Below, piece after piece: positions 13,020 through 62,275 of a stretch of DNA of 64,000 nucleotides. Origin of the DNA: Owenia fusiformis (taxonomy: Eukaryota; Annelida; Polychaeta; Sabellida; Oweniidae). The notes beneath the pieces were generated by a model. That model was not told the origin of the DNA, did not search any database, and saw only the letters and a program-made list of their open reading frames with translations. Position numbers and translations under genes: made by a program. The first letter of the stretch is position 1. The number at the start of each line of letters is the position of its first letter. The stretch covers positions 25,853,985 through 25,917,984 of the forward strand of contig CAIIXF020000004.1 in assembly GCA_903813345.2 (NCBI GenBank), written 5' to 3'.

Positions 13020-13070
13020 GTAATCCTTACATTTTATTTTGCGTATTAGTAATGAACAATATTAGCAAAA

Positions 13071-14213: not shown

Positions 14214-14354
14214 ATTTATGTGATAGATTCATATTAAGAAAAGAAGAAGTAAGGCAGATGTGGGCAATAAAATATTACAAATTTTATTGAATTACGTAAT
14301 GTTACATAATAGTTACAATAAAATAATTTTTGGTTGGGGCAAAAATGCCCGCAC
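14214..14354. repeat. Dispersed repeat block A; identical direct copy at 24823-24959
   Basis: About 140 bp, essentially identical to 24823-24959 (TTTATGTGATAGATTCATAT ... TTTTTGGTTGGGGCAAAAAT). The 24.8 kb copy adjoins the 3' flank of the Ngaro-type retroelement, so this block may be a terminal piece of that family. Unproven. Confidence 0.7.
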
Positions 14355-25675: not shown

Positions 25676-26448
25676 TTATATATTGAATTTTTGAATTCTA
25701 ATGTATTTTTTCACAGCACTTGATTTCCATCGACCCATTTGTGTAACAATATCTTGGCTCACACCTTCTGATATAAGTTGTGTAGCATGACCAATGCGTA
25801 AACTGTGCGAATTATATTTTTTAGGATCAATACTAGCAGCTTCAAGTGAACTTTTTAAGTATTTTACAAATAAAGACCTACAAATAGGTACTTTATGTTC
25901 GTCCAAGAATAACGGGCCTTGCTGGCCCCCCCTAAGCTTAAGATAATGTACCATGGCTGAGTATGGGCAATATTTTGATCCCCTTATGGGTGATATCAAT
26001 ATGTTGAAGGGCTGGGTTGGATTGTTATGCTTGCAGTTGGACATTTTGATACAAACACCTGCATTTGAGATGGATATATCGGAAAATTGTATTGTATTAA
26101 TGTTATCTTTGTGCCATGTGACTTCCCCAACTCTTAGAAAAGCACCATATGTGAAGAGAAAGAGAGCAGTGGTCATAATTGCTATATAGTTGTTAGCATA
26201 AATCACCGGTATAATGTCAATAAGTTTCTTAAGAATGTTCAAAGTAATTGGAAGCCTACCATCATTAGAAGGCCCTCCCATTAACTGTGCTCCCTTCTGG
26301 AGCTTTCTAATGATGAAGCAGTCTGCTGGGTCTGGGACATCGCATATCTTATGTAAGAAAGATAAACCTGAGACATATGTGTTGATGGATGAGCCAGAGT
26401 AGTTCAGGAGAGATAGATAGGCAATGAACTGTGATAGCTGTTGGTCGA
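25676..26448 (-). pseudogene. Tyrosine recombinase domain of Ngaro-type retrotransposon
   Basis: The 201-codon frame 26281-25676 carries the catalytic pattern of tyrosine recombinases: FLRVGE (Arg I), HSLRIGHAT (His-x-x-Arg) and SAVKKYIR (Tyr nucleophile). It is open upstream to about 26448, where the core-binding segment QLSQFIAYLSLLNYSGSS joins, out of frame, the end of the RT-RNase H frame. In this retroelement class the recombinase integrates the circular cDNA in place of a DDE integrase. All catalytic residues are present, but a frame shift near 26440-26450 separates it from the polymerase. Confidence 0.85.
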
Positions 26449-28374: not shown

Positions 28375-29143
28375 GAAAGGGCTGCCCTAGGCGTAGTGAA
28401 GCTTTTGAGAAAAGTTCAGTGTTGAAGTGGTCCCATTGAAAATTCATTTGCTTCTTGTTGAGTCTAAAGTTTTCATCATAGAGCTTAGCTGTTTGAAAGT
28501 TTCCGTATTGGGCCATTTCTCTAATATCTTCATCATATTTCAATAGCTTGGTGACCTCATTTTTGTGTGCTTGGCAATAAATTGATGTGTAAATGTGAAA
28601 AGCAGTTGTCCAATTGTTTATATTGTATATCAGGTTCTTTACCTTTGGGGGGTTAACAAGATCGCTTATAGCTTGACTTAGGGGGTTAACTAGTTTTGGT
28701 CTTAAATCTTGAGTGGCTGTTAATAGTTGGTTGAAATCTACATAGGCGTTTGAGACAATTTGTTTTTTAATTTTTTCTTCAATTCTGGATGTTAGGGGAA
28801 TTCCTGCCCCTGTTAATGGAATAATATTTGGTGGTGCCAAATGATAGGACTCACCCGCACTGGCCTCTTCTGTGGGAGCCTTCAGGAAGTTCTCTATAAT
28901 CTCTCCCATGTTTGAATCTGGCGGAGAAGCTGAAGTTGAAGGCGACGGTTCCTGCTCTTGCCTGAGCTTTTTGAACAAAGACTCCACAATTGCATCCCTG
29001 TCAGCTTCACTCAGACTTCCTGATTGTTTTCTCTTTTCCCCCCTATTTTGAGTGGCAGGTTCAGAGGCTGTATCCCCTTGCACTATGGTTGACCTATTTG
29101 CACTTCTTAGTTTTGGCATTGTAGACCGGGTGCTTTTCTGCAA
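28148..29143 (-). CDS. gag: Ngaro-type gag-like protein with CCCH/CCHC zinc finger
   Basis: 331 codons, upstream of and overlapping pol by ~227 bp in a different frame, as expected for gag. The N-terminus is polar and Ser/Glu-rich with a basic patch (GEKRKQSG). A central helical region includes WTTAFHIYTSIYCQAHKNEV. The C-terminus (about 283-325) has CFSFQKFGKCTKNSSCKFKH followed by CFKCKRETH, a zinc-finger array likely to bind RNA. The frame is intact. Its start lies only ~15 bp from the edge of the giant inverted repeat at 29158. Confidence 0.75.
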   Translation of the reverse strand: MQKSTRSTMPKLRSANRSTIVQGDTASEPATQNRGEKRKQSGSLSEADRDAIVESLFKKLRQEQEPSPSTSASPPDSNMGEIIENFLKAPTEEASAGESYHLAPPNIIPLTGAGIPLTSRIEEKIKKQIVSNAYVDFNQLLTATQDLRPKLVNPLSQAISDLVNPPKVKNLIYNINNWTTAFHIYTSIYCQAHKNEVTKLLKYDEDIREMAQYGNFQTAKLYDENFRLNKKQMNFQWDHFNTELFSKASLRLGQPFLETQKPVNQKPDKKYSGNKQSTIPKGYCFSFQKFGKCTKNSSCKFKHLCFKCKRETHTSPMSAFKCTDTQNHNTD

Positions 29144-29157
29144 AAGGTCTCTCTGTA

Positions 29158-32100
29158 AAATGTGGTAGGCGTTTAGTGTTAAAAGTGTTCTGACAAGTGT
29201 TTCTTATGTAACTTTTTATGCTAAATCCAAAAAACCATGTTGGCAAGCTGAAATATGATTATTTAACCCTTAAAATACCATGTTAGTCCCCCTACCCCCC
29301 AAATTCACCCCTATCAGGGGGAAAAAATTCTTCAACCTAAAATAACTTTAATATTATGGTTTTTGTAAGTGAAATACATGGACATTGTATAAAATAAACA
29401 TTTGAAGTATGAATGATACGGATTACCCTTAAGAAATTTGAATAAAAGCAAAAAGTATGTACCCCAGGGGGCAAATTTATGACCCATTTTTTACTTTTCG
29501 TGTCATAACATTTTTATTAGACAATGATGGATGCTAAAAAAATCCATGTAAAAGGCATAATACCTGGTCTACTAATCCTGCAAGAATCAAAGTAATTCCT
29601 TTGATAATTGCCTCGAAAAAAATTAGTGAATTTAAGAAAAAATGACATTTTAGCTGGGACTGATTTTATGTGTGACTATAACTGACCCCTATTGCTTTAA
29701 CATTTATCCCTCTGTGTTCATATATTTAGCATTTTAGAATAAATCTTAAATATAAAACTTATTTTAGCAAAGTTTTAGGAAGATTTAAGCTTTTTATCAT
29801 GTTCAACTATTAAAAATTCATGAAATATGATGTCTAAAATTGATAAGTTATACGTATACCCTTGGAAGACCCTTATAATTTCTTATTTATGAACATATTT
29901 GTACCAATATTAGTTTTCTAGCTTAGAGAAATGATGTATGATATATCCTGGCTTTGCTTTCTGGTGGATTGAACAATCTTTTAAGTGTTATCATTGAAAA
30001 TTCATTCTTAAATCATAGGTCTGCAATCGATTAAATTCATGTATACCATTAGTATCATTCTACTGGTATGAGCATAATTGAACAAGCTATGATTTCATAG
30101 ATTAGTTGTTTGATGTATGACATATTCCAAGCTGATTTTCTGGTGATTTTAACCATCTAAGAGGCTTTAAATCATTGAAAATCATTACAAATAAAGGCCT
30201 AAACGGACAGTATTAAGGTAGACTATTAGAACACCCTTATTAATTCCAGGCTTAGAGTATATTGGTACCTACTACTGTCTCATAGCTCGGAGGTTTGATA
30301 TATGACATATTCTGACTAGTTTTTCTGCAGATTTGAACCACCTAACAGGTCTAATCATTGAATATACTTAATATACTAGGTCTAAAATTGAAGTATTCAA
30401 TAGAACCCTCTATGATATATTCAAAAAAGATTCAGAATGACATAAACCTCAACACTGGATCTGAATCAGAATTACAATTCTTCATAGAGCTGAACTAGGA
30501 AGACAAGGCTAATTTCATTCTTAGCAGCCTGACAATTGCATGACGTGAGAGCAAAAGTACCAATGATTCATACAAATCTTCATTTTATGGAGTTTTCTTC
30601 CCTGAACAATGTTTAGTCATATTAAACACCCCCCCCCACTGTCCCCATTAACCTTTCTGTGTTACTCTTGGAGTTAAGGCAGAAATTCTTGACAAATGGC
30701 GTATACTCACTTTGACAACATTTTGAATTAGTGGGATGTTTCAGTTAATGAGAGTTTTTGCAGAGTAGCAATTTTTGAAATTTAAATCCAATAGGACCAT
30801 ATAAGGGAAATTCAAAAAAGATTCAGAATGACATTAACCACAACATTGGATCTGGAAATCAAATAAAGCAACTGATTGATGTGATCTCGGATGACTCTTG
30901 TAAATCAGAATTACAATCCTTCATAGAGCTGAACAAGGAAGACAAGGATTACTTTTCATTCTGGTAGTAATACATGGACATGGTCCAAATCTTGATACGC
31001 TTCACCATAGCCCAAAGAAAGGGAAATTGGGAGCTTCATCTCAATGTATTTCAATGCATGATCCCCTTTTTCATGAGATATGACCACCAAAAGTATGCAA
31101 GATGGGGCACAGTACACTTCACTGCTGAAGTTTTGCTTCCTTGAAGACTGTAGCCAAATCCTCAGATGTAGATGCAATTGATGCTAATTTGTAAGAAGGA
31201 TCATATATTGGAAATATTACGGTTGGCATTTCAATACCATTTGTTAAACAGTTAAGGAGTAGAGTACATTTGAGTTGGCTTGAATGTTTCATTCGTCAAT
31301 GAGAGGGCTATTGGAAAATACATCAGCTCATGGTTCATGATTTCATTGATGCCCACAGGTCTGTGGTTAGCTTCATATGCAGTGATAAGATTCTGCAAAA
31401 CATTCCTGTCTGCCTTAACAACTTTCTGCTCGTTTATATTGGGATTAGGCATATAATTTAAAAAATGTTGGTGCTTGCTCAGTAGATCAAGAAATGTTGT
31501 GTCTTTCATTTGACCCTGTTGGTATCAACCTCTAAGACACAAAGACATCCAGTTGTAGTTGGCCAAACTGTCGAGCCTGTTGATTGTTTCTGTGAGTACA
31601 TCTTTTGTGCATATACTTTGGAGATTAAGTAATGTATCTTCTGAAAACATGCCAAACTTCAGCAGCATGTCACATATTTTATCTTCTTCCAGAGACTGAA
31701 TACTCTATCTTTTATGAGTACTAGTATCTACAACTATTTTTGATGTTATGAGTATTGGCTATCAATTTTTCTTCAACATGTATTGTAATGACTTCAGTAT
31801 GAATGAAATGTCCTTTGGTGTTCTGGTCCTGGATTGTGATATTGGTTCTCGATTGGAGGGGGGAGGGGATGTTAGACATTGTTTCTTTTCACGTTAGATT
31901 ATGGTTTTGTGATATATAGGGTCTACTTTTCTTATGACAGATTTGCACTTGCGGTTTGCTTTTCTTGTTGAGTTTCTTTAATGTTTTAGTCACCCTTCCC
32001 TTTGGCATTTGTGCTTATATATCCATAGATTCTTGTTTTGATTTGCAAATTACCACCCCCCCCCTCTATGGAATCTCAAAACACAAGTCCAAACATCATT

Positions 32101-38431: not shown

Positions 38432-38650
38432 TCAATTTACCCTGCGCCATTCGCTAATTCTTTCCAATTCGGGTTCCAATGACCTACAATAGCATTTGCT
38501 TTTGTCTCCCATTTGTGGGTCACACATACACGATGTACCGTCCTCACAAGCTCCTTTCTTGCATTTGGCACGACCGCCTCTCACTTCTGCACACTTCCTT
38601 CCCTCACGTATCTCTTTGCTTGAGCTACTCCTATCACTTCTTGGACATTG
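38432..38650 (-). CDS. EGF/Cys-rich gene, terminal exon (Cys-rich domain copy 2 and stop)
   Basis: A minus-strand exon after the acceptor ATTATCATTTTCCAG, phase 0. It encodes QCPRSDRSSSSKEIREGRKC, then CKKGACEDGTSCMCDP and SKCYCR, then the tail SLEPELERISEWRRVN and a stop at 38432-38434. It is about 75% identical to the exon at 40418-40630, so the module was duplicated. Eight cysteines in the pattern C-x18-C-x8-C-x4-C-x5-C-x-C-x8-C-x-C suggest a small disulfide-rich extracellular domain. I do not recognise a named family. Confidence 0.7.
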   Translation of the reverse strand, partial: QCPRSDRSSSSKEIREGRKCAEVRGGRAKCKKGACEDGTSCMCDPQMGDKSKCYCRSLEPELERISEWRRVN

Positions 38651-40417: not shown

Positions 40418-40630
40418 CAGTGGCGCTGCTGTCGTTGTTATCGTTGCAGGGGGTGTCGTTAATCTACAATAGCATTTACTTTTGTCCTTCTTTGGTGGGT
40501 CACATATACACGATGTATCGTCCTCACAGACTCCTTTCTTGCATTTGACACGACCGCGCTTCACTTCTGCGCACTTCCTTCCCTCACGTATCTCTTTGCT
40601 TGAGCTACTGATGTCACTTCTTGGACACAG
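40418..40630 (-). CDS. EGF/Cys-rich gene, Cys-rich plus Thr-rich exon
   Basis: A 213 bp phase 0-0 exon between the acceptor TCTTTCAACAG and the donor GTAATTATAACG (minus strand). It encodes LCPRSDISSSSKEIREGRKC, CKKGVCEDDTSCICDP, SKCYCRL and then TTPPATITTTAAPL, a likely O-glycosylated linker. The donor context resembles that of the Thr-rich exon at 47515. Phase 0 at both ends lets it join that exon upstream and the terminal exon downstream. If the donor were not used, translation would stop at 40382-40384 after TSQLTQVP, giving an alternative terminus. Function unknown; likely extracellular. Confidence 0.7.
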
Positions 40631-42065: not shown

Positions 42066-42363
42066 CGCCCGCCTGTTTCACGTCAAGCTGATGACAATAT
42101 CGTACCTTTTTAGGTATGATAAAAGACGAGTTATTAATTTTGAAGTTTCAAGTTCTGCCACTTGATATGCTACAAGATATCGGATTTGTTTTTTATCGAA
42201 CTCCAAATCTTTTCACTGTTCACCTTTTTGGTGGATCCCGGCCATGGCATTAATGGTTGAGAAATGGAGATCGATACCAGTCATAGTTTTCTTTAGATGA
42301 CCATTGTGAAATATTAAGTTGCAGATGGATGTTAAACCTTTGATATGCTTATGAACTTCAAGA

Positions 42364-43250
42364 TAAGATTTGTCTCTCCCACATCATTTGAGATTAGATT
42401 TTGTCTGTCCCACATCATTTGAGATAAGATTTTGTCTGTCCCACATCATTTGAGAAAAGATTTTGTCTGTCCCATATCATTTGAGATAAGATTTTGTCTG
42501 TTCCACATCATCTGAGATAAGATTTTGTCTGTCCCACATCATTTGAGATAAGATTTTGTCTGTCCCACATCATTTGAGATAAGATTTAGTCTGTCCCACA
42601 TCATTTGAGATAAGATTTTGTCCGTCCCACATCATTTGAGATAAGATTTTGTCTGTCCCACATCATTTGAGATAAGATTTTGTCTGTCCCACATCATTTG
42701 AGATAAGATTTTGTCTGTCCCACATCATTTGAGATAAGATTTTGTCTGTCCCACATCATTTAGGATAAGATTTTGTCGGTCCCATATCATTTGAGATAAG
42801 ATTTTGTCTGTCCCACATCATTTGAGATAAGATTTTGTCTGTCCCACATCATTTGAGATAAGATTTTGTCTGTCCCACATCATTTGAGATAAGATTTTGT
42901 CTGTCCAACATCATTTGAGATAAGATTTTGTCTGTCCCACATCATTGGAGATAAGATTTTGTCTGTCCCACATCATTTGAAATAAGATTTTGTCTGTCCC
43001 ACATCATTTGAGATAAGATTTTGTCTGTCCCACATCATTTGAGATAAGATTTCGTCTGTCCCACATCATTTGAGATAAGATTGTGTCTGCCCCACATCAT
43101 TTGAGATAAGATTTTGTCTGTCCCACATCATTTAAGATAAGATTTTGTCTGTCCCACATCATTTGAGATAAGATTTTGTCTGTCCCACATCATTTGAGAT
43201 AAGATTTTGTCTTTCCCACATCATTTGAGATAAAATTTTGTCTGTCCCAC
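42364..43250. repeat. 31 bp minisatellite, about 28 copies
   Basis: The unit GATAAGATTTTGTCTGTCCC + ACATCATTTGA is repeated head to tail with rare single-base variants (for example GTCGGTCCC at ~42772, TCTTTCCC at ~43208). The array ends in CCACATTATTTCACATTATT, which resembles 31668-31690. This suggests that it expanded within a dispersed repeat family also present in the loop of the giant inverted repeat. Confidence 0.9.
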
Positions 43251-43590
43251 ATTATTTCACATTATTATCCTGTATGCATACTCTATAGCATCTACAACTA
43301 TTTTTGATCTTTTGAATATTGACAGTCAATATTATTCTTCAGCATGTACATATATTGTAATGCCTTTAGTAAATTGCAGTTGAATGCAATATCTATTTGT
43401 TTTATTTTTTACTTGAATGTAAACAATTAAAGAATATCAGACACATAACATTGAAAAACTTGAAAACCTATTATTGTTGGATGCACGTTTGGCCCTACTC
43501 TGCTGCATCAGTACAAATAAATCCTATTAATATATACGTTGTCTCGGATTATGATAATAGTGCCTGAATAGTATGAGGGGGAATAAGACT

Positions 43591-47514: not shown

Positions 47515-47573
47515 CTGTGGTGTCGTCGGCACAGGTGCTGGCGTTGTTGACGTCGGGGCTGTTGTTGTTGTCG
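47515..47573 (-). CDS. EGF/Cys-rich gene, Thr/Pro-rich linker exon
   Basis: A 59 bp minus-strand exon between an acceptor ending TATTTAG and the donor GTAATTAC. Two bases complete a Pro codon with the single base left by the EGF exon, followed by TTTTAPTSTTPAPVPTTPQ, ending in phase 0. A Thr/Pro run like this is typical of mucin-type O-glycosylated stalks. The phase fits both the EGF exon upstream and the Cys-rich exon at 40418-40630 downstream. Too short for ORF detection; called from composition, splice sites and phase. Confidence 0.6.
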
Positions 47574-48430: not shown

Positions 48431-48480
48431 TGCATTTGGATGGCAATTATTCGTTCCTTGTGCGCATTGATCAATGTCAG
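48431..48480 (-). pseudogene. Truncated EGF exon at the array edge
   Basis: The 5' 50 bp of the duplicated EGF exon (including its acceptor side GTCAGCTGAAATTG) is present. After PNA the sequence changes and a stop follows. A Glu-to-Gln change hits the calcium-binding D-x-(D/N)-E position (IDQCAQ instead of IDECAQ). It has no donor. It marks the left breakpoint of the ~1.47 kb tandem array. Confidence 0.8.
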
Positions 48481-48668
48481 CTGAAATTGAATTTCATGAT
48501 AAGATCATTTCGAGATAAGATCATCGTTTAAGATAATTGTTTGTTATTTTGTACTTAGGTAAACAAATACCACGACATAGCTTTTATAACACGAGGTCTC
48601 AATCTCAATTTAAATAACACTTAGGGCCTTACGGTCCGAGTTGCAAGAATAAAGAAACAAATGAAAAT

Positions 48669-48887
48669 ATGAATTTTCACGCAAAGGAAGAAGTGGAATA
48701 TACACAAGTGACACAACCCCCATGGATGAATGCTATTCTCGAAATTGGTAAACAAATTGCCGATTTAACAGTAGTAACATCAAAGATACAAAAAGACCAA
48801 GACGAAATGCGAACTTTCATGTTACAAAACATTTCGAAACATGTTCAAGCCTTGCCATCAATTTTATCAATTTTAAAACATTTCTAA
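48669..48887 (+). other. Repeated 72-codon ORF antisense to the EGF introns (7 copies)
   Basis: Starting MNFHAKEEVEYTQVTQPPWM, with LEIGKQIADLTVVTSKIQKD and ending LPSILSILKHF. Other copies are at 50140, 51669, 56920, 58390 and 59852 (full length) and 61313 (cut at about 61500). The central part could form a coiled coil. Between this copy and the 50140 copy every base difference in the 5' half changes an amino acid, so there is no sign of purifying selection. I regard it as a frame carried along by duplication, perhaps a relic of an older element. No domain recognised. Confidence 0.35.
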
Positions 48888-49765
48888 ATTAAGTGGAATA
48901 GGGCATACAATGTGTCACAGTTTCAAGCAGATTTTAGTACTTTCTGACCAATTGTATCTTCAGACTTCATTTCATGATTATGTAATACTGACCTACTTTT
49001 TATTTAAATAAGTGTTTAACCTTCTAATTGTGTTAACATATTCTTGATCAGTGGTCGAAAAAAGTGAAATGTGGATATCACTAAAAGTTTGGATTCTAGC
49101 CATGATTCTTTCATATTCTATCGTATTCGGGGATTCCCCATTACGTCATCTCCCGCATTATCTCCAATCAAATTGCAGGATGTGATCAGGTGAACAAACA
49201 TGAGCACGTGCTCTCTCAGAGCTGCGTATAAGCAAAGTAAAATTTGAAATGGTAAAAATGGCGGAAATGGCGTTAACATCAGTTCAATATCATCATTTTA
49301 AACCTACGGTAATACTGTTAAAGTTACTCGATCCAAACTTGTAGAGAATACTCATAAAAATTCAGCGAACATTAGGAGATTCAATTCAATGGCAAATGAG
49401 GCCTGTTTATAAAATTTGTTTTAAAACGTGCCAATATGAAAGGTCATCTTTATAAAATCTCCCCCCTTGATTCTAGCCATAAACGTGCTCTCTCAGAGCT
49501 GCGAATGTGCAAAGTAAAATTTGAAATGGTGGAAATGGCGTTAACATCAGTTTTAATATCACCATTTTAAACCTACGGTAATACTACTAGAGTTACTCGA
49601 TCCAAACTTGTAGAGAATACTCATAAAACTACAGCAAACATTAGGAGATTCAGTTCAATGGCAAATGAGGCCTGTTTATAAAATTTGTTTTCGAACGTGC
49701 CAATATGAAAGGTCATCTTTGGGAAATCTCCCCGCCCTGGATTTTAGCCAATCAATTTGACTTAC

Positions 49766-50017
49766 GTTGACATAGTGTACCATTTCCGGTGTAGCCTGGA
49801 TTACAATTACACGAGAATGATCCTTCGGTGTTCATACACATGGCATTACTGTCGCAGTTGTTTGTGCTGCCTTGAGCACATTCATCATTATCTGTACAAT
49901 TGACACCGTCTCCAGAGTATCCTGGATTGCAAGCACAATCAAAACTTCCATCTGTATTTGTGCAACTTGCATTTGGATGGCAATTATTCGTTTCTTGTGC
50001 GCATTCATCAATGTCAG
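49766..50017 (-). CDS. EGF/Cys-rich gene, EGF exon 7 (two cbEGF domains)
   Basis: A 252 bp symmetric phase 1-1 exon between the acceptor CAATTTCAG and the donor GTAAGTCAAA on the minus strand. It encodes two calcium-binding EGF domains: [18 protein letters not shown]...GYSGDGVNC, then [19 protein letters not shown]...GYTGNGTLC. The D-x-(D/N)-E-C start plus the Asn and aromatic positions of the cbEGF consensus are present. This copy is distinctive in having E instead of G in AQETNN. It is the last EGF exon before the Thr-rich exon at 47515, whose phase it matches. Extracellular Ca2+-dependent rod-like structure is expected from the family. Confidence 0.9.
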
Positions 50018-51228
50018 CTGAAATTGAATTTCATGATAAGATCATTTCGAGATAAGATCATCGTTTAAGATAATCTCAATTTAAATAACACTTAGGGCCT
50101 TACGGTCCGAGTTGCAAGAACAAAGAAACAAATGAAAATATGAATTTTTACACAAAGGAAGAAGTGGAATATACACAAGTGACAAAACCCCCATGGATGA
50201 ATGTTATTCTCGAAATTGGTAAACAAATTGCCGAATTAACAGTAGTAACATCAAAGATACAAAAAGACCAAGTTGAAATGCGAACTTTCATGTTACAAAA
50301 CATTTCGAAACATGTTCAAGCCTTGCCATCAATTTTATCAATTTTAAAACATTTCTAAATTGAGTGGAATAGGGCATACAATGTGTCACAGTTTCAAGCA
50401 GATTTTAGTACTTTCTGACCAATTGTATCTTCAGACTTCATTTCATGATTATGTAATACTGACCTACTTTTTATTTAAATAAGTGTTTAACCTTCTAATT
50501 GCGTTAACATATTCTTGATCAGTGGTCGAAAAAAGTGAAATGTGGATATCACTAAAAGTTTGGATTCTAGCCATGATTCTTTCATATTCTATCGTATTCG
50601 GGGATTCCCCATTACGTCATCTCCCGCATTATCTCCAATCAAATTGCAGGATGCGATCAGGTGAACAAACATGAGCACGTGCTCTCTCAGAGCTGCGTAT
50701 GCGCAAAGTAAAATTTGAAATGGTGGAAATGGCGTTAACATCAGTTCAATATCATCATTTTAAACCTACGGTAATACTGTTAAAGTTACTCGATCCAAAC
50801 TTGTAGAGAATACTCATAAAAATTCAGCGAACATTAGGAGATTCAATTCAATGGCAAATGAGGCCTGTTTATAAAATTTGTTTTCAAACGTGCCAATATG
50901 AAAGGTCATCTTTAGAAAATCTCCCCCCCCTTGATTCTAGCCATAAACGTGCTCTCTCAGAGCTGCGAATGTGCAAAGTAAAATTTGAAATGGTGGAAAT
51001 GGCGTTAACATCAGTTTAATATCAACATTTTAAACCTACGGTAATACTATTAGAGTTACTCGATCCAAACTTGTAGAGAATACTCATAAAACTACAGCGA
51101 ACATTAGGAGATTCAGTTCAATGGCAAATGAGGCCTGTTTATAAAATTTGTTTTCGAACGTGCCAATATGAAAGGTCATCTTTGGGAAATCTCCCCGCCC
51201 TGGATTTTAGCCAATCAATTTGACTTAC

Positions 51229-51480
51229 GTTGACATAGTGTACCATTTCCGGTGTAGCCTGGATTACAATTACACGAGAATGATCCTTCGGTGTTCATAC
51301 ACATGGCATTACTGTCGCAGTTGTTTGTGCTGCCTTGAGCACATTCATCATTATCTGTACAATTGACACCGTCTCCAGAGTATCCTGGATTGCAAGCACA
51401 ATCAAAACTTCCATCTGTATTTGTGCAACTTGCATTTGGATGGCAATTATTCGTACCTTGTGCGCATTCATCAATGTCAG
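51229..51480 (-). CDS. EGF/Cys-rich gene, EGF exon 6 (two cbEGF domains)
   Basis: Same 252 bp phase 1-1 structure and splice sites as the exon at 49766. It reads AQGTNN at the first variable site (GGT codon). All 12 cysteines and both D-x-(D/N)-E-C motifs are intact. Upstream in transcription lies an intron enlarged by the LINE insertion at 52481-56264. Confidence 0.9.
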
Positions 51481-52696
51481 CTGAAATTGAATTTCATGAT
51501 AAGATCATTTCGAAATAAGATCATCGTTTAAGATAATTGTTTGTTATTTTGTACTGAGGTAAACAAATACCACGACATAGCTTTTATAACACGAGGTCTC
51601 AATCTCAATTTAAATAACACTTAGGGCCTTACGGTCCGAGTTGCAAGAATAAAGAAACAAATGAAAATATGAATTTTTACACAAAGGAAGAAGTGAAATA
51701 TACACAAGTGACAAAACCCCCATGGATGAATGTTATTCTCGAAATTGGTAAACAAATTGCCGAATTAACAGTAGTAACATCAAAGATACAAAAAGACCAA
51801 GACGAAATGCGAACTTTCATGTTACAAAACATTTCGAAACATGTTCAAGCCTTGCCATCAATTTTATCAATTTTAAAACATTTCTAAATTGAGTGGAATA
51901 GGGCATACAATGTGTCACAGTTCCAAGCAGATTTTAGAACTTTCTGACCAATTGTATCTTCAGACTTCATTTCATGATTATGTAATAATGACCTACTTTT
52001 TATTTAAATAAGTGTTTAACCTTCTAATTGCGTTAACATATTCTTGACCAGTAGTCGAAAAAAGTGAAATGTGGATATCACTAAAAGTTTGGATTCTAGC
52101 CATGATTCTTTCATATTCTATCGTATTCGGGGATTCCCCATTACGTCATCTCCCGCACTATCTCCAATCAAATTGCAGGATCCGATCAGGTGAACAAACA
52201 TGAGCACGTGCTCTCTCAGAGCTGCGTATGCGCAAAGTAAAATTTGAAATGGTGGAAATGGCGTTAACATCAGTTCAATATCATCATTTTAAACCTACGG
52301 TAATACTGTTAAAGTTACTCGATCCAAACGTGTAGAGAATACTCATAAAAATTCAGCGAACATTAGGAGATTCAATTCAATGGCAAATGAGGCCTGTTTA
52401 TAAAATGTGTTTTCAAACGTGCCAATATGAAAGGTCATCTTTAGAAAATCTCCCCCCCCCTTGATTCTAGCCATAAACATGTTATGTTATGTTATGTTAT
52501 ATTTATTTTCATATTATAATTATTACAATTTGAATAACAGGGTTTGCACAAGACGCTTGGCGTATACTGTGCAGTTTACACCACATTACATATTACATTG
52601 TAGTGTATATATAGCAAGAGCACATTCTTTGATGATAAGGATCACTAGGTTAGCAATGAAACATGAACAAAATGAACCATGACATGATATTTGATA

Positions 52697-55600
52697 TTAG
52701 ATGTAGGTGGAGAGGAGAAGTGATTTCAAAGACGATTTAAACAAAGATAAAGTAGAAGACATAATGATGTTTCCATTTACTCCATTCCAAACTCTTGATA
52801 GTTCTACTTTTATTGACTTTTCACCAAATTTGTTTTTAAACATATATGAACGTATACGGTCTTTATTTCTAGTTTCATGGTCATGTGTATCAGCATTTGT
52901 GGAATAGAATTGATTAAAAAGGTGATATGGGAACTTGTCAGGTTTATTCATATTTTGGTATGCAAAGTTGGCAACATTCAAGTTAAATATGTCATAAATA
53001 TTTAAGATTCTAAGATCTTTCAATAAAGGGGCAGCATGAGCTAACTTACTAGAATTTGTTATTAACCTGGCAAATTTCTTCTGGAGTATATGCAGAGGCT
53101 TGAGGAGATTTTTATCAGCATTACCCCAAATTATATTACAGTAATCAAGCCCCGAATGAATAAGAGCATTATAAATTTTCATTTTCGAACAGTTGTCAAG
53201 TAAGTGCTTAGAAGTATATAACATGTGTATAATTTTAGCTATTTTCCCTTTTAGTTTTTGAGTGTGAAGTTTCCAATTTAGTTTGTCATCGATTAGGACA
53301 CCAAGAAAATTAATGTTATCCTTCCTTGTAATATTTTTGTCATCAATTTTTATCTTGATTTCTTCAGGTTTATATGTTCCTCTTTTAGGTGAAAAGAATA
53401 AAAAATTAGTCTTTTCAATATTAAGTGATAACTTGTTAGCCATGAACCAGTCATTGACTTTTTTAAGTTCATTATTTGCAACAGATATGAGTTCTTCTTT
53501 CGACTCATTTGAATGTAAAATACTGGTGTCATCTGCAAAAAGTACAAACTTCAATATAGAAGAAGTAAAACTGAGGTCGTTTATATAAATAATAAAAAGT
53601 AGGGGTCCTAGGATAGACCCTTGGGGTACTCCACATGAAATAGTTGTTGGGGTTGACACATGGTCTTTATATTGTGTAATTTGTTTTCTATCCGTTAAGT
53701 AAGATTTAAACCAAGAGTTTGCAACACCACGAATTCCATAATAATGAAGCTTCTCCAGCAAAATAGCGTGATCAACCGTATCAAAAGCTTTCGATAAGTC
53801 AAGAAAAAGGCCTATACAGAATTTATTATTATTAAGCGAATCTCGAAGTGATTCTAAAAAGGTGAGAATTGCCATATAGGTTGATAAGTTTTTTCTGAAA
53901 CCAAATTGATCTTTACTTAATAATTTGAATTTATCCAAAAATAGTGTGACTTTTTTATGCATAATTTTCTCGAATACTTTAGAGAAAACACTAAGAAGTG
54001 AGATTGGTCTATAATTAGTGAAAAGGTGAACAGAGCCCTTTTTATATACAGGAGTAACTTTGGCAGTTTTTAAGGTGTCTGGGAAAACTCCAGTTTTAAG
54101 TGATATATTACATAAGTAAGTCAGAATATTTCCTAGAGCAAGCTTATTTTCTTTCAATATAACTGGTTTGATTTGATCAAGTCCAGGTGAACCATTCTTA
54201 AGTTCAGATATTATATTTACTATTTCTTCCTCTGAGATTGGTCTTAAGAAAATTGAGGAATTAGCACTGTCATTGTTTGACATAAAACCCCTAAAAGATT
54301 TATTAGGTTTAATTTTATTTGCTAGATTTCTCCCAACATTTGCAAAAAAGTCATTAAATCTTTCGGCTATACCTTGATTGTCCGTAATTTTATTACCATC
54401 AACTTGAAAGAATGGAACATCCTGTGATTTATTATGTTTTCTTTTTAAAATCTTGTTTAATATTGACCAGGTTTTCTTAACATCCCCTTTGCATTCATCA
54501 ATTTTTTGTTTAAAATATGTTTTTTCTGCATTCCGTATTAGAGTTGTGAGAATATTTTTATATGTCTTATAATTAGTACTATTAATAGGATTGGGATTTT
54601 TTAAATATTCTTTATATAGTTTGTTCTTCTCTTTAACTGATGTGAGAATAGCGTCAGTCAACCAAGGTTTCCTTGTATTAAGATAAATCTTTATTGTTTT
54701 TGATTTTGAAGGAAAGCATTCATTGTAAACACTCATAAATTTGTCAATAAAAACTGAATATGCTTGATTGCAATTATCTGATTGTTTGACATCATTCCAG
54801 TCTGTGTTTGAAAGCTGGTAGTTGAATTTCTCCTTAGCTGTTTTATTCATAATCCTATAATTAATAGTCTTGTAAATTGACTGTTTTAGTTGTTTTTTAG
54901 TGGTTAAGAAAATAGGGAAATGATCAGATATATCAGTTAGCACTATGCCAGAATAACTTATATCTACAGCATTTGTAAAAATATTATCAATAAGGGTAGC
55001 TGATCTTGATCCTATTCGTGTTGGCTTGTAGATTGAAGGATGAAAACCATTTGTTAACAAAGAATTGTAGAAATCCTCGGTCATATAATGCTCATTTGCC
55101 TTTAAGAGGTCTATGTTAAAGTCTCCTAAGATGTATGTGACTTTCCCTTCACCATTTAATCTTTTAAGAAATATATCTATGTTGTTGTTAAAATCTCTGA
55201 GGTTAACATTCGGGGGCTTATAAAGGACAGATATTAGTATAATTTGCCCAGACTTTAAAGACATCTCAATGGTGCATGAGTCGCAATTATCCATGTTAAA
55301 TTCTAAATCTGGTCTTTTGGTGAAATTAATATTATCAAGAATATGTATACAAACTCCTCCCCCTATTCTACCATCTCTAGATTTGCATATGGTGCTATAT
55401 CCTTCTAAGTTATAAGTATCTTGATTGTTATTGTTTAACCAGGTTTCAGACATGGCTATAATAGGGAAGTCATGCTTTAATAAATTGTGCAAGTTATCAA
55501 ATTTCCATTGATTTTTCATGACACTTCTCATATTTACATGTATCATAGACAAATTATTCCCACTGTCCATTGGTTGGCTGTTCATTTGCTCAAGAGTATA

Positions 55601-55813
55601 ATATTTACATTTTTCAATTAAAGTTGTTGAAAAATCATTATCTTCAATAACATTATGATTGGAGGGGTCATTAGCAACACCTCTATCAAGGTCTTTTGGA
55701 TTGAACATTAAGCTTTCAAAGTCAATGTGATTATTAGCTGATGGAATGACATCAAAGAACATCACTGGAGTAACGTTATAAAAGGGTAGCTCACAAAGAT
55801 GCAAGTCATCCAT
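52697..55813 (-). CDS. LINE ORF2: AP endonuclease-reverse transcriptase, uninterrupted
   Basis: 1038 codons without stop or frameshift. Endonuclease about residues 87-305: HVNMRS (92), SETW (122), GGGVC (151), GDFN (230) and SDH (296), i.e. all main APE catalytic blocks. RT about 540-860: GLDQIKP, YRPISLLSVFSKVFEKIM (601-618), LDLSKAFDTVDH (671-682), GVPQGSILGPLLF (728-740) and FADDTS (759-764). The C-terminal region has an LDYCNIIWG block and RVWNGV near 1007. The layout fits the Jockey/CR1/L2 group of non-LTR elements. Integrity suggests a recent, possibly active copy. It starts three bases after the ORF1 stop. Confidence 0.93.
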   Translation of the reverse strand: MDDLHLCELPFYNVTPVMFFDVIPSANNHIDFESLMFNPKDLDRGVANDPSNHNVIEDNDFSTTLIEKCKYYTLEQMNSQPMDSGNNLSMIHVNMRSVMKNQWKFDNLHNLLKHDFPIIAMSETWLNNNNQDTYNLEGYSTICKSRDGRIGGGVCIHILDNINFTKRPDLEFNMDNCDSCTIEMSLKSGQIILISVLYKPPNVNLRDFNNNIDIFLKRLNGEGKVTYILGDFNIDLLKANEHYMTEDFYNSLLTNGFHPSIYKPTRIGSRSATLIDNIFTNAVDISYSGIVLTDISDHFPIFLTTKKQLKQSIYKTINYRIMNKTAKEKFNYQLSNTDWNDVKQSDNCNQAYSVFIDKFMSVYNECFPSKSKTIKIYLNTRKPWLTDAILTSVKEKNKLYKEYLKNPNPINSTNYKTYKNILTTLIRNAEKTYFKQKIDECKGDVKKTWSILNKILKRKHNKSQDVPFFQVDGNKITDNQGIAERFNDFFANVGRNLANKIKPNKSFRGFMSNNDSANSSIFLRPISEEEIVNIISELKNGSPGLDQIKPVILKENKLALGNILTYLCNISLKTGVFPDTLKTAKVTPVYKKGSVHLFTNYRPISLLSVFSKVFEKIMHKKVTLFLDKFKLLSKDQFGFRKNLSTYMAILTFLESLRDSLNNNKFCIGLFLDLSKAFDTVDHAILLEKLHYYGIRGVANSWFKSYLTDRKQITQYKDHVSTPTTISCGVPQGSILGPLLFIIYINDLSFTSSILKFVLFADDTSILHSNESKEELISVANNELKKVNDWFMANKLSLNIEKTNFLFFSPKRGTYKPEEIKIKIDDKNITRKDNINFLGVLIDDKLNWKLHTQKLKGKIAKIIHMLYTSKHLLDNCSKMKIYNALIHSGLDYCNIIWGNADKNLLKPLHILQKKFARLITNSSKLAHAAPLLKDLRILNIYDIFNLNVANFAYQNMNKPDKFPYHLFNQFYSTNADTHDHETRNKDRIRSYMFKNKFGEKSIKVELSRVWNGVNGNIIMSSTLSLFKSSLKSLLLSTYI

Positions 55814-55815
55814 GG

Positions 55816-56244
55816 TTAATCAGGTTTAAATGTTGTTGTATGGAAAAGTCGGATTAGTAAGGAGACCCCTTCTAATCTCATCAAATATTCATATATATTA
55901 GGATGAATGAAAGCTGTAACTAGAGCTATCAGTTGAATTGACCTGGTGACCTTAAGTTCATGTTTCATTGTAAAATAAGCATGGAATGAGAGTGAGAACT
56001 CATTAAGAATAGCTACAGTTGTATATGTTTCATAAATGATCCTTATTTGGTGATTGTTATCAGCATATCGCTTTGAAGTGGTGTCTTTAAATGAAGTGAT
56101 TATAATTGGCAAACATACTAGTATCTTTGATTTATGTTCTTGAATTTGTGAAGAAACTAAACTATGTTTTCTATATACTAATACTAAACTGACTAATAGA
56201 AAAGACAAACATATGAATATGTTTGCAATGTCCAAGATTGTCAT
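55816..56244 (-). CDS. LINE ORF1: short protein with hydrophobic segments
   Basis: I place the start at the Met at 56244 (codon 29 of the longer frame), because the sequence right of ~56265 belongs to the host repeat unit; this leaves ~20 bp of leader. About 142 residues. A strongly hydrophobic N-terminal segment (ILDIANIFICLSFLLVSLVLVY) looks like a transmembrane helix or signal anchor, followed by a polar middle part and a second mildly hydrophobic region (LIALVTAFIHPNIYEYLMRL). There is no zinc knuckle, RRM or coiled coil. It ends with PD and a stop just before the ORF2 start codon. The family is unknown to me; it may be a decayed or unusual ORF1. Confidence 0.55.
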   Translation of the reverse strand: MTILDIANIFICLSFLLVSLVLVYRKHSLVSSQIQEHKSKILVCLPIIITSFKDTTSKRYADNNHQIRIIYETYTTVAILNEFSLSFHAYFTMKHELKVTRSIQLIALVTAFIHPNIYEYLMRLEGVSLLIRLFHTTTFKPD

Positions 56245-56545
56245 TTCTGTTGATGAAACTCCCAACTTTTCTCTCAGAGCTGCGAATGTGCAAAGTAAAA
56301 TTTGAAATGGTGGAAATGGCGTTAACATCAGTTTAATATCACCATTTTAAACCTACGGTAATACTATTAGAGTTACTCGATCCAAACTTGTAGAGAATAC
56401 TCATAAAACTACAGCGAACATTAGGAGATTCAGTTCAATGGCAAATGAGGCCTGTTTATAAAATTTGTTTTCGAACGTGCCAATATGAAAGGTCATCTTT
56501 GGGAAATCTCCCCGCCCTGGATTTTAGCCAATCAATTTGACTTAC

Positions 56546-56797
56546 GTTGACATAGTGTACCATTTCCGGTGTAGCCTGGATTACAATTACACGAGAATGA
56601 TCCTTCGGTGTTCATACACATGGCATTACTGTCGCAGTTGTTTGTGCTGCCTTGAGCACATTCATCATTATCTGTACAATTGACACCGTCTCCAGAGTAT
56701 CCTGGATTGCAAGCACAATCAAAACTTCCATCTGTATTTGTGCAACTTGCATTTGGATGGCAATTATTCGTTCCTTGTGCGCATTCATCAATGTCAG
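56546..56797 (-). CDS. EGF/Cys-rich gene, EGF exon 5 (two cbEGF domains)
   Basis: A 252 bp phase 1-1 exon like its sisters, variable site AQGTNN (GGA codon). It lies just upstream, in the direction of transcription, of the intron that carries the LINE. Cysteines and calcium-binding residues intact. Confidence 0.9.
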
Positions 56798-58015
56798 CTG
56801 AAATTGAATTTCATGATAAGATCATTTCGAGATAAGATCATCGTTTAAGATAATCTCAATTTAAATAACACTTAGGGCCTTACGGTCCGAGTTGCAAGAA
56901 CAAAGAAACAAATGAAAATATGAATTTTTACACAAAGGAAGAAGTGGAATATACACAAGTGACAAAACCCCCATGGATGAATGTTATTCTCGAAATTGGT
57001 AAACAAATTGCCGAATTAACAGTAGTAACATCAAAGATACAAAAAGACCAAGACGAAATGCGAACTTTCATGTTACAAAACATTTCGAAACATGTTCAAG
57101 CCTTGCCATCAATTTTATCAATTTTAAAACATTTCTAAATTGATTGGAATAGGGCATACAATGTGTCACAGTTTCAAGCAGATTTTAGTACTTTCTGACC
57201 AATTGTATCTTCAGACTTCATTTCATGATTATGTAATACTGACCTACTTTTTATTTAAATAAGTGTTTAACCTTCTAATTGCGTTAACATATTCTTGATC
57301 AGTGGTCGAAAAAAGTGAAATGTGGATATCACTAAAAGTTTGGATTCTAGCCATGATTCTTTCATATTCTATCGTATTCGGGGATTCCCCATTACGTCAT
57401 CTCCCGCATTATCTCCAATCAAATTGCAGGATGCGATCAGGTGAACAAACATGAGCATTGAGCACGTGCTCTCTCAGAGCTGCGTATGCGCAAAGTAAAA
57501 TTTGAAATGGTGGAAATGGCGTTAACATCAGTTCAATATCATCATTTTAAACCTACGGTAATACTGTTAAAGTAACTCGATCCAAACTTGTAGAGAATAC
57601 TCATAAAAATTCAGCGAACATTAGGAGATTCAATTCAATGGCAAATGAGGCCTGTTTATAAAATTTGTTTTCAAACGTGCCAATATGAAAGGTCATCTTT
57701 AGAAAATCTCCCCCCCCTTGATTCTAGCCATAAACGTGCTCTCTCAGAGCTGCGAATGTGCAAAGTAAAATTTGAAATGGTGGAAATGGCGTTAACATCA
57801 GTTTAATATCAACATTTTAAACCTACGGTAATACTATTAGAGTTACTCGATCCAAACTTGTAGAGAATACTCATAAAACTACAGCGAACATTAGGAGATT
57901 CAGTTCAATGGCAAATGAGGCCTGTTTATAAAATTTGTTTTCGAACGTGCCAATATGAAAGGTCATCTTTGGGAAATCTCCCCGCCCTGGATTTTAGCCA
58001 ATCAATTTGACTTAC

Positions 58016-58267
58016 GTTGACATAGTGTACCATTTCCGGTGTAGCCTGGATTACAATTACACGAGAATGATCCTTCGGTGTTCATACACATGGCATTACT
58101 GTCGCAGTTGTTTGTGCTGCCTTGAGCACATTCATCATTATCTGTACAATTGACACCGTCTCCAGAGTATCCTGGATTGCAAGCACAATCAAAACTTCCA
58201 TCTGTATTTGTGCAACTTGCATTTGGATGGCAATTATTCGTTCCTTGTGCGCATTCGTCAATGTCAG
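58016..58267 (-). CDS. EGF/Cys-rich gene, EGF exon 4 (two cbEGF domains)
   Basis: A 252 bp phase 1-1 exon. The only difference seen from exon 5 is a silent GAT-to-GAC change in the D-E of the first domain (plus strand CATTCGTCAATG). Splice sites identical. Two intact cbEGF domains. Confidence 0.9.
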
Positions 58268-59477
58268 CTGAAATTGAATTTCATGATCAGATCATTTCGA
58301 GATAAGATCATCGTTTAAGATAATCTCAATTTAAATAACACTTAGGGCCTTACGGTCCGAGTTGCAAGAACAAAGAAACAAATGAAAATATGAATTTTTA
58401 CACAAAGGAAGAAGTGGAATATACACACGTGACAAAACCCCCATGGATGAATGTTATTCTCGAAATTGGTAAACAAATTGCCGAATTAACAGTAGTAACA
58501 TCAAAGATACAAAAAGACCAAGACGAAATGCGAACTTTCATGTTACAAAACATTTCGAAACATGTTCAAGCCTTGCCATCAATTTTATCAATTTTAAAAC
58601 ATTTCTAAATTGAGTGGAATAGGGCATACAATGTGTCTCAGTTTCAAGCAGATTTTAGTACTTTCTGACCAATTGTATCTTCAGACTTCATTTCATGATT
58701 ATGTAATACTGACCTACTTTTTATTTAAATAAGTGTTTAACCTTCTAATTGCGTTAAAATATTCTTGATCAGTGGTCGAAAAAAGTGAAATGTGGATATC
58801 ACTAAAAGTTTGGATTCTAGCCATGATTCTTTCATATTCTATCGTATTCGGGGATTCCCCATTACGTCATCTCCCGCATTATCTCCAATCAAATTGCAGG
58901 ATGCGATCAGGTGAACAAACATGAGCACGTGCTCTCTCAGAGCTGCGTATGCGCAAAGTAAAATTTGAAATGGTGGAAACGGCGTTAACATCAGTTCAAT
59001 ATCATCATTTTAAACCTACGGTAATACTGTTAAAGTAACTCGATCCAAACTTGTAGAGAATACCCATAAAAATTCAGCGAACATTAGGAGATTCAATTCA
59101 ATGGCAAATGAGGCCAGTTTATAAAATTTGTTTTCAAACGTGCCAATATGAAAGGTCATCTTTAGAAAATCTCCCCCCCTTGATTCTAGCCATAAACATG
59201 CTCTCTCAGAGCTGCGAATGTGCAAAGTAAAATTTGAAATGGTGGAAATGGCGTTAACATCAGTTTAATATCACCATTTTAAACCTACGGTAATACTATT
59301 AGAGTTACTCGATCCAAACTTGTAGAGAATACTCATAAAACTACAGCGAATATTAGGAGATTCAGTTCAATGGCAAATGAGGCCTGTTTATAAAATTTGT
59401 TTTCGAACGTGCCAATATGAAAGGTCATTTTTGGGAAATCTCCCCGCCCTGGATTTTAGCCAATCAATTTGACTTAC

Positions 59478-59729
59478 GTTGACATAGTGTACCATTTCCA
59501 GTGTAGCCTGGATTACAATTACACGAGAATGATCCTTCGGTGTTCATACACATGGCATTACTGTCGCAGTTGTTTGTGCTGCCTTGAGCACATTCATCAT
59601 TATCTGTACAATTGACACCGTCTCCAGAGTATCCTGGATTGCAAGCACAATCAAAACTTCCATCTGTATTTGTGCAACTTGCATTTGGATGGCAATTATT
59701 CGTTCCTTGTGCGCATTCATCAATGTCAG
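59478..59729 (-). CDS. EGF/Cys-rich gene, EGF exon 3 (two cbEGF domains)
   Basis: A 252 bp phase 1-1 exon. It carries a silent ACC-to-ACT change in GYTGNG (plus strand CATTTCCAGTG). All domain residues intact. Confidence 0.9.
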
Positions 59730-60939
59730 CTGAAATTGAATTTCATGATAAGATCATTTCGAGATAAGATCATTGTTTAAGATAATCTCAATTTAAATAA
59801 CACTTAGGGCCTTACGGTCCGAGTTGCAAGAACAAAGAAACAAATGAAAATATGAATTTTTACACAAAGGAAGAAGTGGAATATACACAAGTGACAAAAC
59901 CCCCATGGATGAATGTTATTCTCGAAATTGGTAAACAAATTGCCGAATTAACAGTAGTAACATCAAAGATACAAAAAGACCAAGACGAAATGCGAACTTT
60001 CATGTTACAAAACATTTCGAAACATGTTCAAGCCTTGCCATCAATTTTATCAATTTTAAAACATTTCTAAATTGAGTGGAATAGGGCATACAATGTGTCA
60101 CAGTTTCAAGCAGATTTTAGTACTTTCTGACCAATTGTATCTTCAGACTTCATTTCATGATTATGTAATACTGACCTACTTTTTATTTAAATAAGTGTTT
60201 AACCTTCTAATTGCGTTAACATATTCTTGATCAGTGGTCGAAAAAAGTGAAATGTGGATATCACTAAAAGTTTGGATTCTAGCCATGATTCTTTCATATT
60301 CTATCGTATTCGGGGATTCCCCATTACGTCATCTCCCGCATTATCTCCAATCAAATTGCAGGATGCGATCAGGTGAACAAACATGAGCACGTGCTCTCTC
60401 AGAGCTGCGTATGCGCAAAGTAAAATTTGAAATGGTGGAAATGGCGTTAACATCAGTTCAATATCATCATTTTAAACCTACGGTAATACTGTTAAAGTTA
60501 CTCGATCCAAACTTGTAGAGAATACTCATAAAAATTCAGCGAACATTAGGAGATTCAATTCAATGGCAAATGAGGCCTGTTTATAAAATTTGTTTTCAAA
60601 CGTGCCAATATGAAAGGTCATCTTTAGAAAATCTCCCCCCCTTGATTCTAGCCATAAACATGCTCTCTCAGAGCTGCGAATGTGCAAAGTAAAATTTGAA
60701 ATGGTTGAAATGGCGTTAACATCAGTTTAATATCACCATTTTAAACCTACGGTAATACTATTAGAGTTACTCGATCCAAACTTGTAGAGAATACTCATAA
60801 AACTACAGCGAATATTAGGAGATTCAGTTCAATGGCAAATGAGGCCTGTTTATAAAATTTGTTTTCGAACGTGCCAATATGAAAGGTCATTTTTGGGAAA
60901 TCTCCCCGCCCTGGATTTTAGCCAATCAATTTGACTTAC

Positions 60940-61191
60940 GTTGACATAGTGTACCATTTCCGGTGTAGCCTGGATTACAATTACACAAGAATGATCCTTC
61001 GGTGTTCATACACATGGCATTACTGTCGCAGTTGTTTGTGCTGCCTTGAGCACATTCATCATTATCTGTACAATTGACACCGTCTCCAGAGTATCCTGGA
61101 TTGCAAGCACAATCAAAACTTCCATCTGTATTTGTGCAACTTGCATTTGGATGGCAATTATTCGTTCCTTGTGCGCATTCATCAATGTCAG
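60940..61191 (-). CDS. EGF/Cys-rich gene, EGF exon 2 (two cbEGF domains)
   Basis: A 252 bp phase 1-1 exon. One amino-acid change relative to the consensus: Ser to Leu before a Cys in the second domain (FLCNC instead of FSCNC; plus strand ACACAAGAATG). Cysteines retained. Confidence 0.88.
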
Positions 61192-61890
61192 CTGAAATTG
61201 AATTTCATGATAAGATCATTCGAGATAAGATCATCGTTTAAGATAATCTCATTTTAAATAACACTTAGGGCCTTACGGTCCGAGTTGCAAGAACAAAGAA
61301 ACAAATGAAAATATGAATTTTTACACAAAGGAAGAAGTGGAATATACACAAGTGACAAAACCCCCATGGATGAATGTTATTCTCGAAATTGGTAAACAAA
61401 TTGCCGAATTAACAGTAGTAACATCAAAGATACAAAAAGACAGACGAAATGCGAACTTTCATGTTACAAAACATTTCGAAACATGTTCAAGCCTTGCCAT
61501 CAAAAAGTGAAATGTGGATATCACTAAAAGTTTGGATTCTAGCCATGATTCTTTCATATTCTATCGTATTCGGGGATTCCCCATTACGTCATCTCCCGCA
61601 TTATCTCCAATCAAATTGCAGGATGCGATCAGGTGAACAAACATGAGCACGTGCTCTCTCAGAGCTGCGTATGCGCAAAGTAAAATTTGAAATGGTGGAA
61701 ATGGCGTTAACATCAGTTCAATATCATCATTTTAAACCTACGGTAATACTGTTAAAGTTACTCGATCCAAACGTGTAGAGAATACTCATAAAAATTCAGC
61801 GAACATTAGGAGATTCAATTCAATGGCAAATGAGGCCTGTTTATAAAATTTGTTTTCAAACGTGCATTTTAGCCAATCAATTTGACTTAC

Positions 61891-62136
61891 GTTGACATAG
61901 TGTACCATTTCCGGTGTAGCCTGGATTACAATTACAAGAGAATGATCCTTCGGTGTTCATACACATGGCATTACTGTCGCAGTTGTTTGTGCTGCCTTGA
62001 GCACATTCATCATTATCTGTACAATTGACACCGTCTCCAGAGTATCCTGGATTGCAAGCACAATCAAAACTTCCATCTGTATTTGTGCAACTTGCATTTG
62101 GATGGCAATTATCCGTTCCTTGTGCGCATTCATCAG
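61891..62136 (-). CDS. EGF/Cys-rich gene, EGF exon 1 (most upstream seen; 6 bp shorter)
   Basis: 246 bp. An in-frame 6 bp deletion at the 5' border removes Asp-Ile of D-I-D-E-C, so the first domain starts DECAQGTDNC and loses one of the N-terminal calcium-ligand positions. N-to-D is a second change. The downstream intron is ~700 bp rather than ~1.2 kb because of two deletions in the unit. It is the most diverged copy, as expected at an array edge. No further upstream exon was recognised to 64000, so the protein N-terminus is missing. Confidence 0.85.
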
Positions 62137-62275
62137 CTGAAATTGAATTTCATGATAAGATCATTTCGAGATAAGATCATCGTTTAAGATAATTGTTTGT
62201 TATTTTATACTGAGGTAAACAGATACCATGACATGCTTTTACAACACGAGGTCTCAATCTCAATTTAAAGATATG

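Follow-up and report, generated by a model that had tools for sequence, protein, structure and literature searches.

A sevenfold tandem array of two-cbEGF exons in an apparent astacin metalloprotease gene of Owenia fusiformis

Seven tandem EGF exons and their probable host gene

The annelid Owenia fusiformis carries, on the minus strand of a 64,000-nucleotide stretch of contig C4 (CAIIXF020000004.1; C4:25853985-25917984, hereafter the window), seven tandem exons that each encode two calcium-binding EGF (cbEGF) domains. We propose that this array probably belongs to a single large gene, read from the minus strand, which would encode a secreted zinc metalloprotease of the astacin type and was lengthened by unequal exchange. 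A preliminary description of this DNA had treated the array in isolation; instead, it is bracketed by two exons of the apparent astacin gene, one leaving in phase 1 and the other entering in phase 1. The array, its phases and open frames, the canonical splice sites, the bracketing exons and the intact protease motifs can all be read directly in the DNA.

Six of the array exons are 252 bp long and one, the edge copy, is 246 bp. All are open in phase 1-1, and each has 12 cysteines, zero stops, the acceptor TTTCAG in front and the donor GTAAGT behind, so that AG and GT flank every exon. Since all seven are phase 1-1, any subset or copy number preserves the reading frame, as the preliminary description had proposed for its symmetric exon. 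Table 1 numbers the exons in transcript order on the minus strand, in window coordinates.

Every array exon matches EGF_CA in Pfam (PF07645, 77.3-82.4 bits against a cut-off of 27) together with EGF_3, in two stretches, which bears out the earlier identification of a sevenfold two-cbEGF exon. The array encodes 84 cysteines over 14 EGF domains. By the motif definitions in use for cbEGF domains, the D-x-D-E calcium-binding motif occurs in 13 of the 14 EGFs, the edge copy lacking one D-x, and the hydroxylation motif C-x-N-x4-F-x-C-x-C occurs in all 14; the 14-EGF stretch described earlier is thus confirmed. The linkers between EGFs alternate, reading C-T-DNDEC inside exons and C-QP-DIDEC between them.

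The introns within the array measure, in order, 699, 1210, 1210, 1218, 5065 and 1211 bp, and the exon-to-exon spacings calculated from coordinates are 945, 1462, 1462, 1470, 5317 and 1463 bp. A unit of about 1.47 kb, as first described, therefore holds for four of the six gaps (1,462-1,470 bp) and not for those of 945 bp and 5,317 bp. Deletions in the intron after exon 1 removed about 0.5 kb from the short gap. The long one is mostly due to a long interspersed nuclear element (LINE) that is present in one unit only. The frame of this LINE contains RVT_1 (122 bits in Pfam) and gives an endonuclease match of 23.2 bits, slightly below the cut-off of 24.5. The genome has further near-identical copies of the element, among them one on contig C8 that is about 100% identical over 1,501 bases, and the insertion is therefore probably recent.

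Table 1. Window coordinates of the array and of the features next to it
Feature	Position	Strand	Length	Remarks
Array exon 1 (edge copy)	61891-62136	-	246 bp	6-bp deletion takes out D-I of first calcium-binding motif; one N>D change
Array exon 2	60940-61191	-	252 bp	two cbEGF, phase 1-1; one S>L change
Array exon 3	59478-59729	-	252 bp	
Array exon 4	58016-58267	-	252 bp	EGF_CA and EGF_3 in Pfam
Array exon 5	56546-56797	-	252 bp	
Array exon 6	51229-51480	-	252 bp	
Array exon 7	49766-50017	-	252 bp	one G>E change
5' end of repeat unit before exon 1	62137-62269	-		homology to in-array junctions and to relic A
LINE in intron between exons 5 and 6	~52482-56269	-	3,788 bp	open 1,040-amino-acid frame at 52697-55819
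Truncated eighth exon copy	48431-48480	-		acceptor intact; first 50 bp of exon, then unrelated sequence with in-frame stop
Thr-rich linker exon	47515-47573	-	59 bp	3' of array; phase 1 in, phase 0 out
Cys-rich exon 1 with Thr-rich tail	40418-40630	-		phase 0-0
Cys-rich exon 2	38484-38650	-		phase 0 in; 3' limit uncertain

Exons upstream of the array were read on the minus strand of C4, outside the window, and the gene order is a model from sequence. In this model the order would be astacin, EGF-like, CUB, five copies of an unnamed domain, the seven two-cbEGF exons, a Thr-rich linker and Cys-rich exons. The zinc-site astacin exon (C4:25989648-25989893, minus strand) matches PF01400 with 76.3-78.8 bits (cut-off 22.5) over model positions 78-145. 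It reads HEIGHSFGYYHEQSRPDRD and then SVMHYS, and so contains the zinc motif HExxHxxGxxH, the family glutamate with RxDRD, and the Met-turn SxMHY. The next astacin exon covers the adjoining part of the model (positions 141-189) with 19.7 bits (E 7e-4), which is under the same cut-off of 22.5 when the exon is taken alone. The EGF-like exon scores 14.6 bits for EGF_2, under the cut-off of 22.1, and is 67% identical to the corresponding exon of a paralogue described below; the CUB domain (PF00431, E 7.7e-15) was recognised on three exon pieces after joining them.

The unnamed domain is about 100 amino acids long and occurs five times per astacin gene (for example at C4:25962567-25963490). The copy next to the array, the fifth, is an exon that lies about 30 kb upstream of it and both enters and leaves in phase 1. 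One copy of this domain also finds matches at seven other genomic sites. In the pieces scanned it has no Pfam match over the cut-off (the best is EAGR_box, 14.9 bits against 27), and a search of the PDB with a 344-amino-acid frame holding three copies gave no match.

The array and its bracketing exons are compatible in strand, order and phase, the fifth unnamed-domain exon leaving in phase 1 and the Thr-rich exon entering in phase 1. A virtual splice of 11 exons (the fifth unnamed domain, the seven array exons, the Thr-rich exon and the two Cys-rich exons) yields 827 amino acids with zero stops. From this arrangement we infer that all these exons form one transcript in which all seven array exons are spliced. 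The Cys-rich exons were first taken as a separate gene because they start in phase 0. The Thr-rich exon, which enters in phase 1 and leaves in phase 0, reversed that assignment, though a separate gene is still conceivable.

A paralogue and a relic share the exon order

A paralogue lies about 150 kb away (C4:25741-25750k) and holds, within 9 kb, an astacin domain (85.9 bits), the EGF-like and CUB exons, five unnamed domains and a Thr-rich exon. Its fifth unnamed-domain exon leaves in phase 1 and, after a 314-bp intron, its Thr-rich exon enters in phase 1. We compared the codons of the two protease genes in frames bounded by BLAST alignments rather than by proven exon ends. Pooled over eight exon pairs, nonsynonymous divergence (dN) is 0.27, synonymous divergence (dS) is 1.24 and dN/dS is 0.22; the seven pairs with unsaturated dS range from 0.10 to 0.35. 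The pooled ratio indicates past constraint on the compared exons.

A second locus, which we call relic A and which lies about 113 kb beyond the array, has an unnamed domain, EGFs, a Thr-rich and a Cys-rich exon in the same order as the host gene. About 30 kb separate its EGF exon from the unnamed-domain exon upstream. That EGF exon (C4:25788516-25789658) is built of 123-bp single-EGF units, eight EGFs plus the beginning of a ninth, and runs into a satellite. A 447-bp satellite with about six copies occupies positions 1814-4533 of the window, and part of it resembles the satellite that ends relic A.

Units of the array have probably exchanged sequence

We compared the array units in all 21 pairs, excluding the LINE from its host intron. 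The pooled pairwise difference is 0.80% for exons and 1.21% for introns, so that introns are about 99% alike. Variable sites number 7 of 252 in exons and 45 of about 1210 in introns (Fisher p = 0.58). The preliminary description had judged introns to be about as similar as exons, and these figures agree with it.

The seven exon substitutions are all singletons, four silent and three replacement, to which the 6-bp deletion of the edge copy is added. Exon differences had been called mostly silent, which is correct as a count (four of seven) and does not stand as a sign of selection: the chance of at least four silent changes is 5.3% in 20,000 simulations with the transition/transversion mix of the introns, whereas a simple binomial gives p = 0.03. 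The comparison of dN and dS between array exons that had been suggested was computed, and four silent and three replacement changes are too few to show selection. The mix of silent and replacement changes is thus no convincing sign of selection.

The introns hold seven informative sites with conflicting patterns and 38 singletons. The introns that follow the non-adjacent exons 4 and 6 differ at only 4 of 1,211 sites. A segment of 66 bp occurs after exons 5 and 7, before exon 1 and in relic A, and is absent after exons 1-4 and 6. This mosaic sharing, together with the 66-bp marker, is the pattern expected from unequal exchange or conversion in steps of one and more units, and we infer that the units were exchanged in this way. 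The recent expansion proposed at the outset is supported, and the units show signs of having been shuffled.

The edges of the unit can be placed. Upstream of exon 1, in the introns that precede exon 6 and the truncated copy, and in relic A, homology begins at about a common base, at AAATTGAG. At the other end, position 48431 had been given as the left limit of the array; it is the end of the truncated eighth copy rather than of a full unit.

In the mechanism we envision, a symmetric phase 1-1 two-cbEGF exon between the fifth unnamed domain and the linker would have multiplied along with its intron, by unequal exchange and at times in steps of more than one unit. The protein would thereby have gained a calcium-stabilised spacer of 14 EGFs between its protease/CUB half and its C-terminal Thr/Cys-rich half. 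The array may form a rod that acts as a spacer, probably setting reach or binding valency. Going by fibrillin work, a 14-domain cbEGF rod would be several tens of nanometres long. Gain or loss of a whole unit would change the spacer by two domains and leave the frame intact.

Weighing the one-gene interpretation

A number of observations weigh against a single functional protease gene that includes the array. Conservation of the exons is not measurably above that of the introns within the array. With introns of about 30 kb in front of the array and of several kb behind it, two genes could fit in, and the Thr-rich exon on the downstream side is short and of low complexity. Relatives of the Cys-rich exons also occur elsewhere in the genome (14 matches including self). 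The eighth copy, if spliced in, would terminate the protein at its in-frame stop. The closest paralogue is without an array and has another exon type after its Thr-rich exon, and the synonymous divergence of the two protease genes approaches saturation, with a pooled dS of 1.24 and an infinite one in the astacin exon. In relic A, the EGF exon contains one in-frame TGA, and its first EGF compared with that of the array gives a dN/dS of 0.75, from eight differences only (two silent, six replacement). The stretches covered, which end upstream at C4:25991984, revealed neither a signal peptide nor a prodomain nor a final exon, and none was sought beyond them.

A first alternative, which is compatible with the single-gene interpretation, is that the exons are used alternatively, either by variable skipping or with the eighth copy as a terminal exon, so that the gene would produce a range of isoforms. 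All seven exons are phase 1-1 and any subset is in frame, their splice sites are identical and have no built-in order, and the eighth copy combines an intact acceptor with an in-frame stop. We regard such use as having a modest chance.

Alternatively, the array could be a non-coding relic, a stranded EGF exon that was amplified as a tandem repeat in intergenic DNA or within a long intron and stays out of the mature transcript. The about equal similarity of exons and introns and the stop in the truncated eighth copy fit this scenario. So do the in-frame stop in nearby relic A and the absence of a second CUB, EGF-like or further unnamed-domain exon from the 214 kb searched, where the last astacin exon recurs only once, in inverted orientation inside the window. 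By protein, moreover, the nearest EGFs outside C4 belong to another family, the C-type lectin-EGF-PAN genes on contig C11. Against it, frame, 12 cysteines and both splice sites are kept in all seven exons, a weak argument since 78% of simulated sets of seven substitutions are also stop-free. The fit in phase between the array and its bracketing exons, whose types recur in order in the paralogue, also speaks for a coding array. Past purifying selection on the exon is indicated by comparison with the C11 genes: against the 21-EGF gene each array EGF has a dN/dS of 0.16, and in the comparison with the 2-EGF gene the second EGF has 0.11, the first being saturated there. On balance a non-coding relic appears unlikely.

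Finally, the seven units could reflect an assembly error, by collapse or by stacking of haplotypes in tandem, and units that are 98-99% alike in a single assembly are hard to assemble; this is very improbable, given zero N in the 218 kb of C4 joined and the marks that distinguish each unit (edge-copy deletions, the LINE, the 66-bp segment, and 1-14 private intron differences).

Comparison with known systems

Gene growth by symmetric exons is established, and the kringle IV-2 repeat of LPA is its best-known recent case. LPA has near-identical units of exon and intron in a gene of protease ancestry. Like the LPA repeat, the Owenia array consists of near-identical tandem exon-intron units with a frame-neutral exon, and the number of units would set the length of the protein. 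Unlike the LPA repeat, whose unit is given as 5.6 kb with 1-40 units per allele (PMC11462820), it has a unit of about 1.46 kb with a single two-cbEGF exon, accompanies a protease with an intact zinc motif, and is known here from one assembly. The array is thus a further case of known symmetric-exon growth, in an unusual host gene.

Astacins are characterised by the motifs HEXXHXXGXXH, EXXRXDRD and SIMHY (PMC9848320). The gene described here has HEIGHSFGYYH, EQSRPDRD and SVMHY and, as in astacins of the BMP1/tolloid type, its protease is followed on the C-terminal side by CUB and an EGF-like exon. The same review states that astacins carry EGF domains "in up to six copies" (PMC9848320). In contrast to the astacins so described, our gene model has 15 EGFs, five unnamed domains and Thr/Cys-rich ends.

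Among solved structures, one array exon is matched best by NELL2 (E 2e-37); NELL1, uromodulin, ADGRE5 and Notch1 come next, and fibrillin-1 reaches E 1e-10. As in the cbEGF tandems of fibrillin, Notch and NELL, both domains of the exon have calcium-binding and hydroxylation motifs. Unlike those old and divergent repeats, the repeats of the array are nearly identical and their linkers alternate. Among the titles listed in literature searches, none describes this array or gene.

Long rods of domain repeats are usually observed long after their formation. Here the unit boundaries, the exchange between units, the mark of a recent LINE and an array-less paralogue are still readable, so that the growth of a modular protein may be traced step by step. 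We tentatively suggest, while leaning somewhat the other way, that the locus is a living coding variable number tandem repeat in which the number of two-cbEGF exons differs between individuals and the spacer varies by inherited steps of two domains, the relic having grown otherwise. If so, the pair of loci would show two routes of EGF-array growth side by side, one by exon-intron units and one by the 123-bp units within a single exon of relic A. Variation in unit number would also make this invertebrate gene, whose protease is apparently intact, a counterpart of the LPA kringle repeat and a place where spacer length could be linked to function.

EGF relatives elsewhere in the genome

In a search of the whole genome by protein, in which the best 150 of 1,078 candidates were scored, the seven array exons came out on top, followed by the C11 genes and the relic on C4. 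The relic is 84-90% identical to the array by protein over one EGF and 80-94% by DNA, and the C11 genes are 66-75% identical to the array exon by protein. A search by DNA (best 40 of 1,108) found the exon only in this array among the matches listed, and missed the relic on C4.

In the C11 genes, C-type lectin, EGF and PAN domains occur together, with 2 to 21 EGFs in one exon. Four of them stand in tandem at C11:27168682-27207658, with EGF exons that hold 5 and 21 EGFs by Pfam and 2 and about 5 by eye. The EGFs counted by eye as about five are split over two frames, and copy number within the exon changes strongly across the four genes. We considered and rejected the idea that the array belongs to such a C-type lectin-EGF-PAN gene; the 174 kb searched around it gave no match to the C-type lectin domain or PAN better than E 0.39.

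Transport of the exon by a mobile element was likewise considered and is unsupported, as the 134-bp piece before the exon was matched only on C4 (nine of nine candidates scored) and the DNA search listed near-identical copies of the exon in this array alone. A 367-bp intronic stretch of the array unit is a dispersed repeat. It also occurs in a tandem array at C8:20222900-20226700, with 1,451-bp spacing and 99.7% identity; this C8 locus has no EGF frame and is unrelated.

On contig C9, astacin is directly joined to cbEGFs in open frames of 593 and 226 amino acids (C9:25859741-25861519 and 25866794-25867471), and a cbEGF frame of 1,104 amino acids at C9:25871570-25874881 lies a few kb after an astacin exon. 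At C10:8279131-8288140, 14 open frames in 10 kb all contain EGF motifs, in exons of two and three EGFs that are mutually divergent by eye. This C10 gene may represent an older stage of the same exon-by-exon growth.

Other features of the window

Copies of protease exons occur within the window itself. A 2.9-kb segment with the C-terminal astacin exon (11320-14218) is an inverted copy of C4:25968569-25971467, 99.5% identical, and the zinc-site exon has an equally scoring copy on the plus strand at 10819-11064. The window further contains a 31-bp minisatellite of 29 copies (42361-43257) and, at 25679-29200, long minus-strand frames that by eye resemble a DIRS-type element with reverse transcriptase and tyrosine recombinase.

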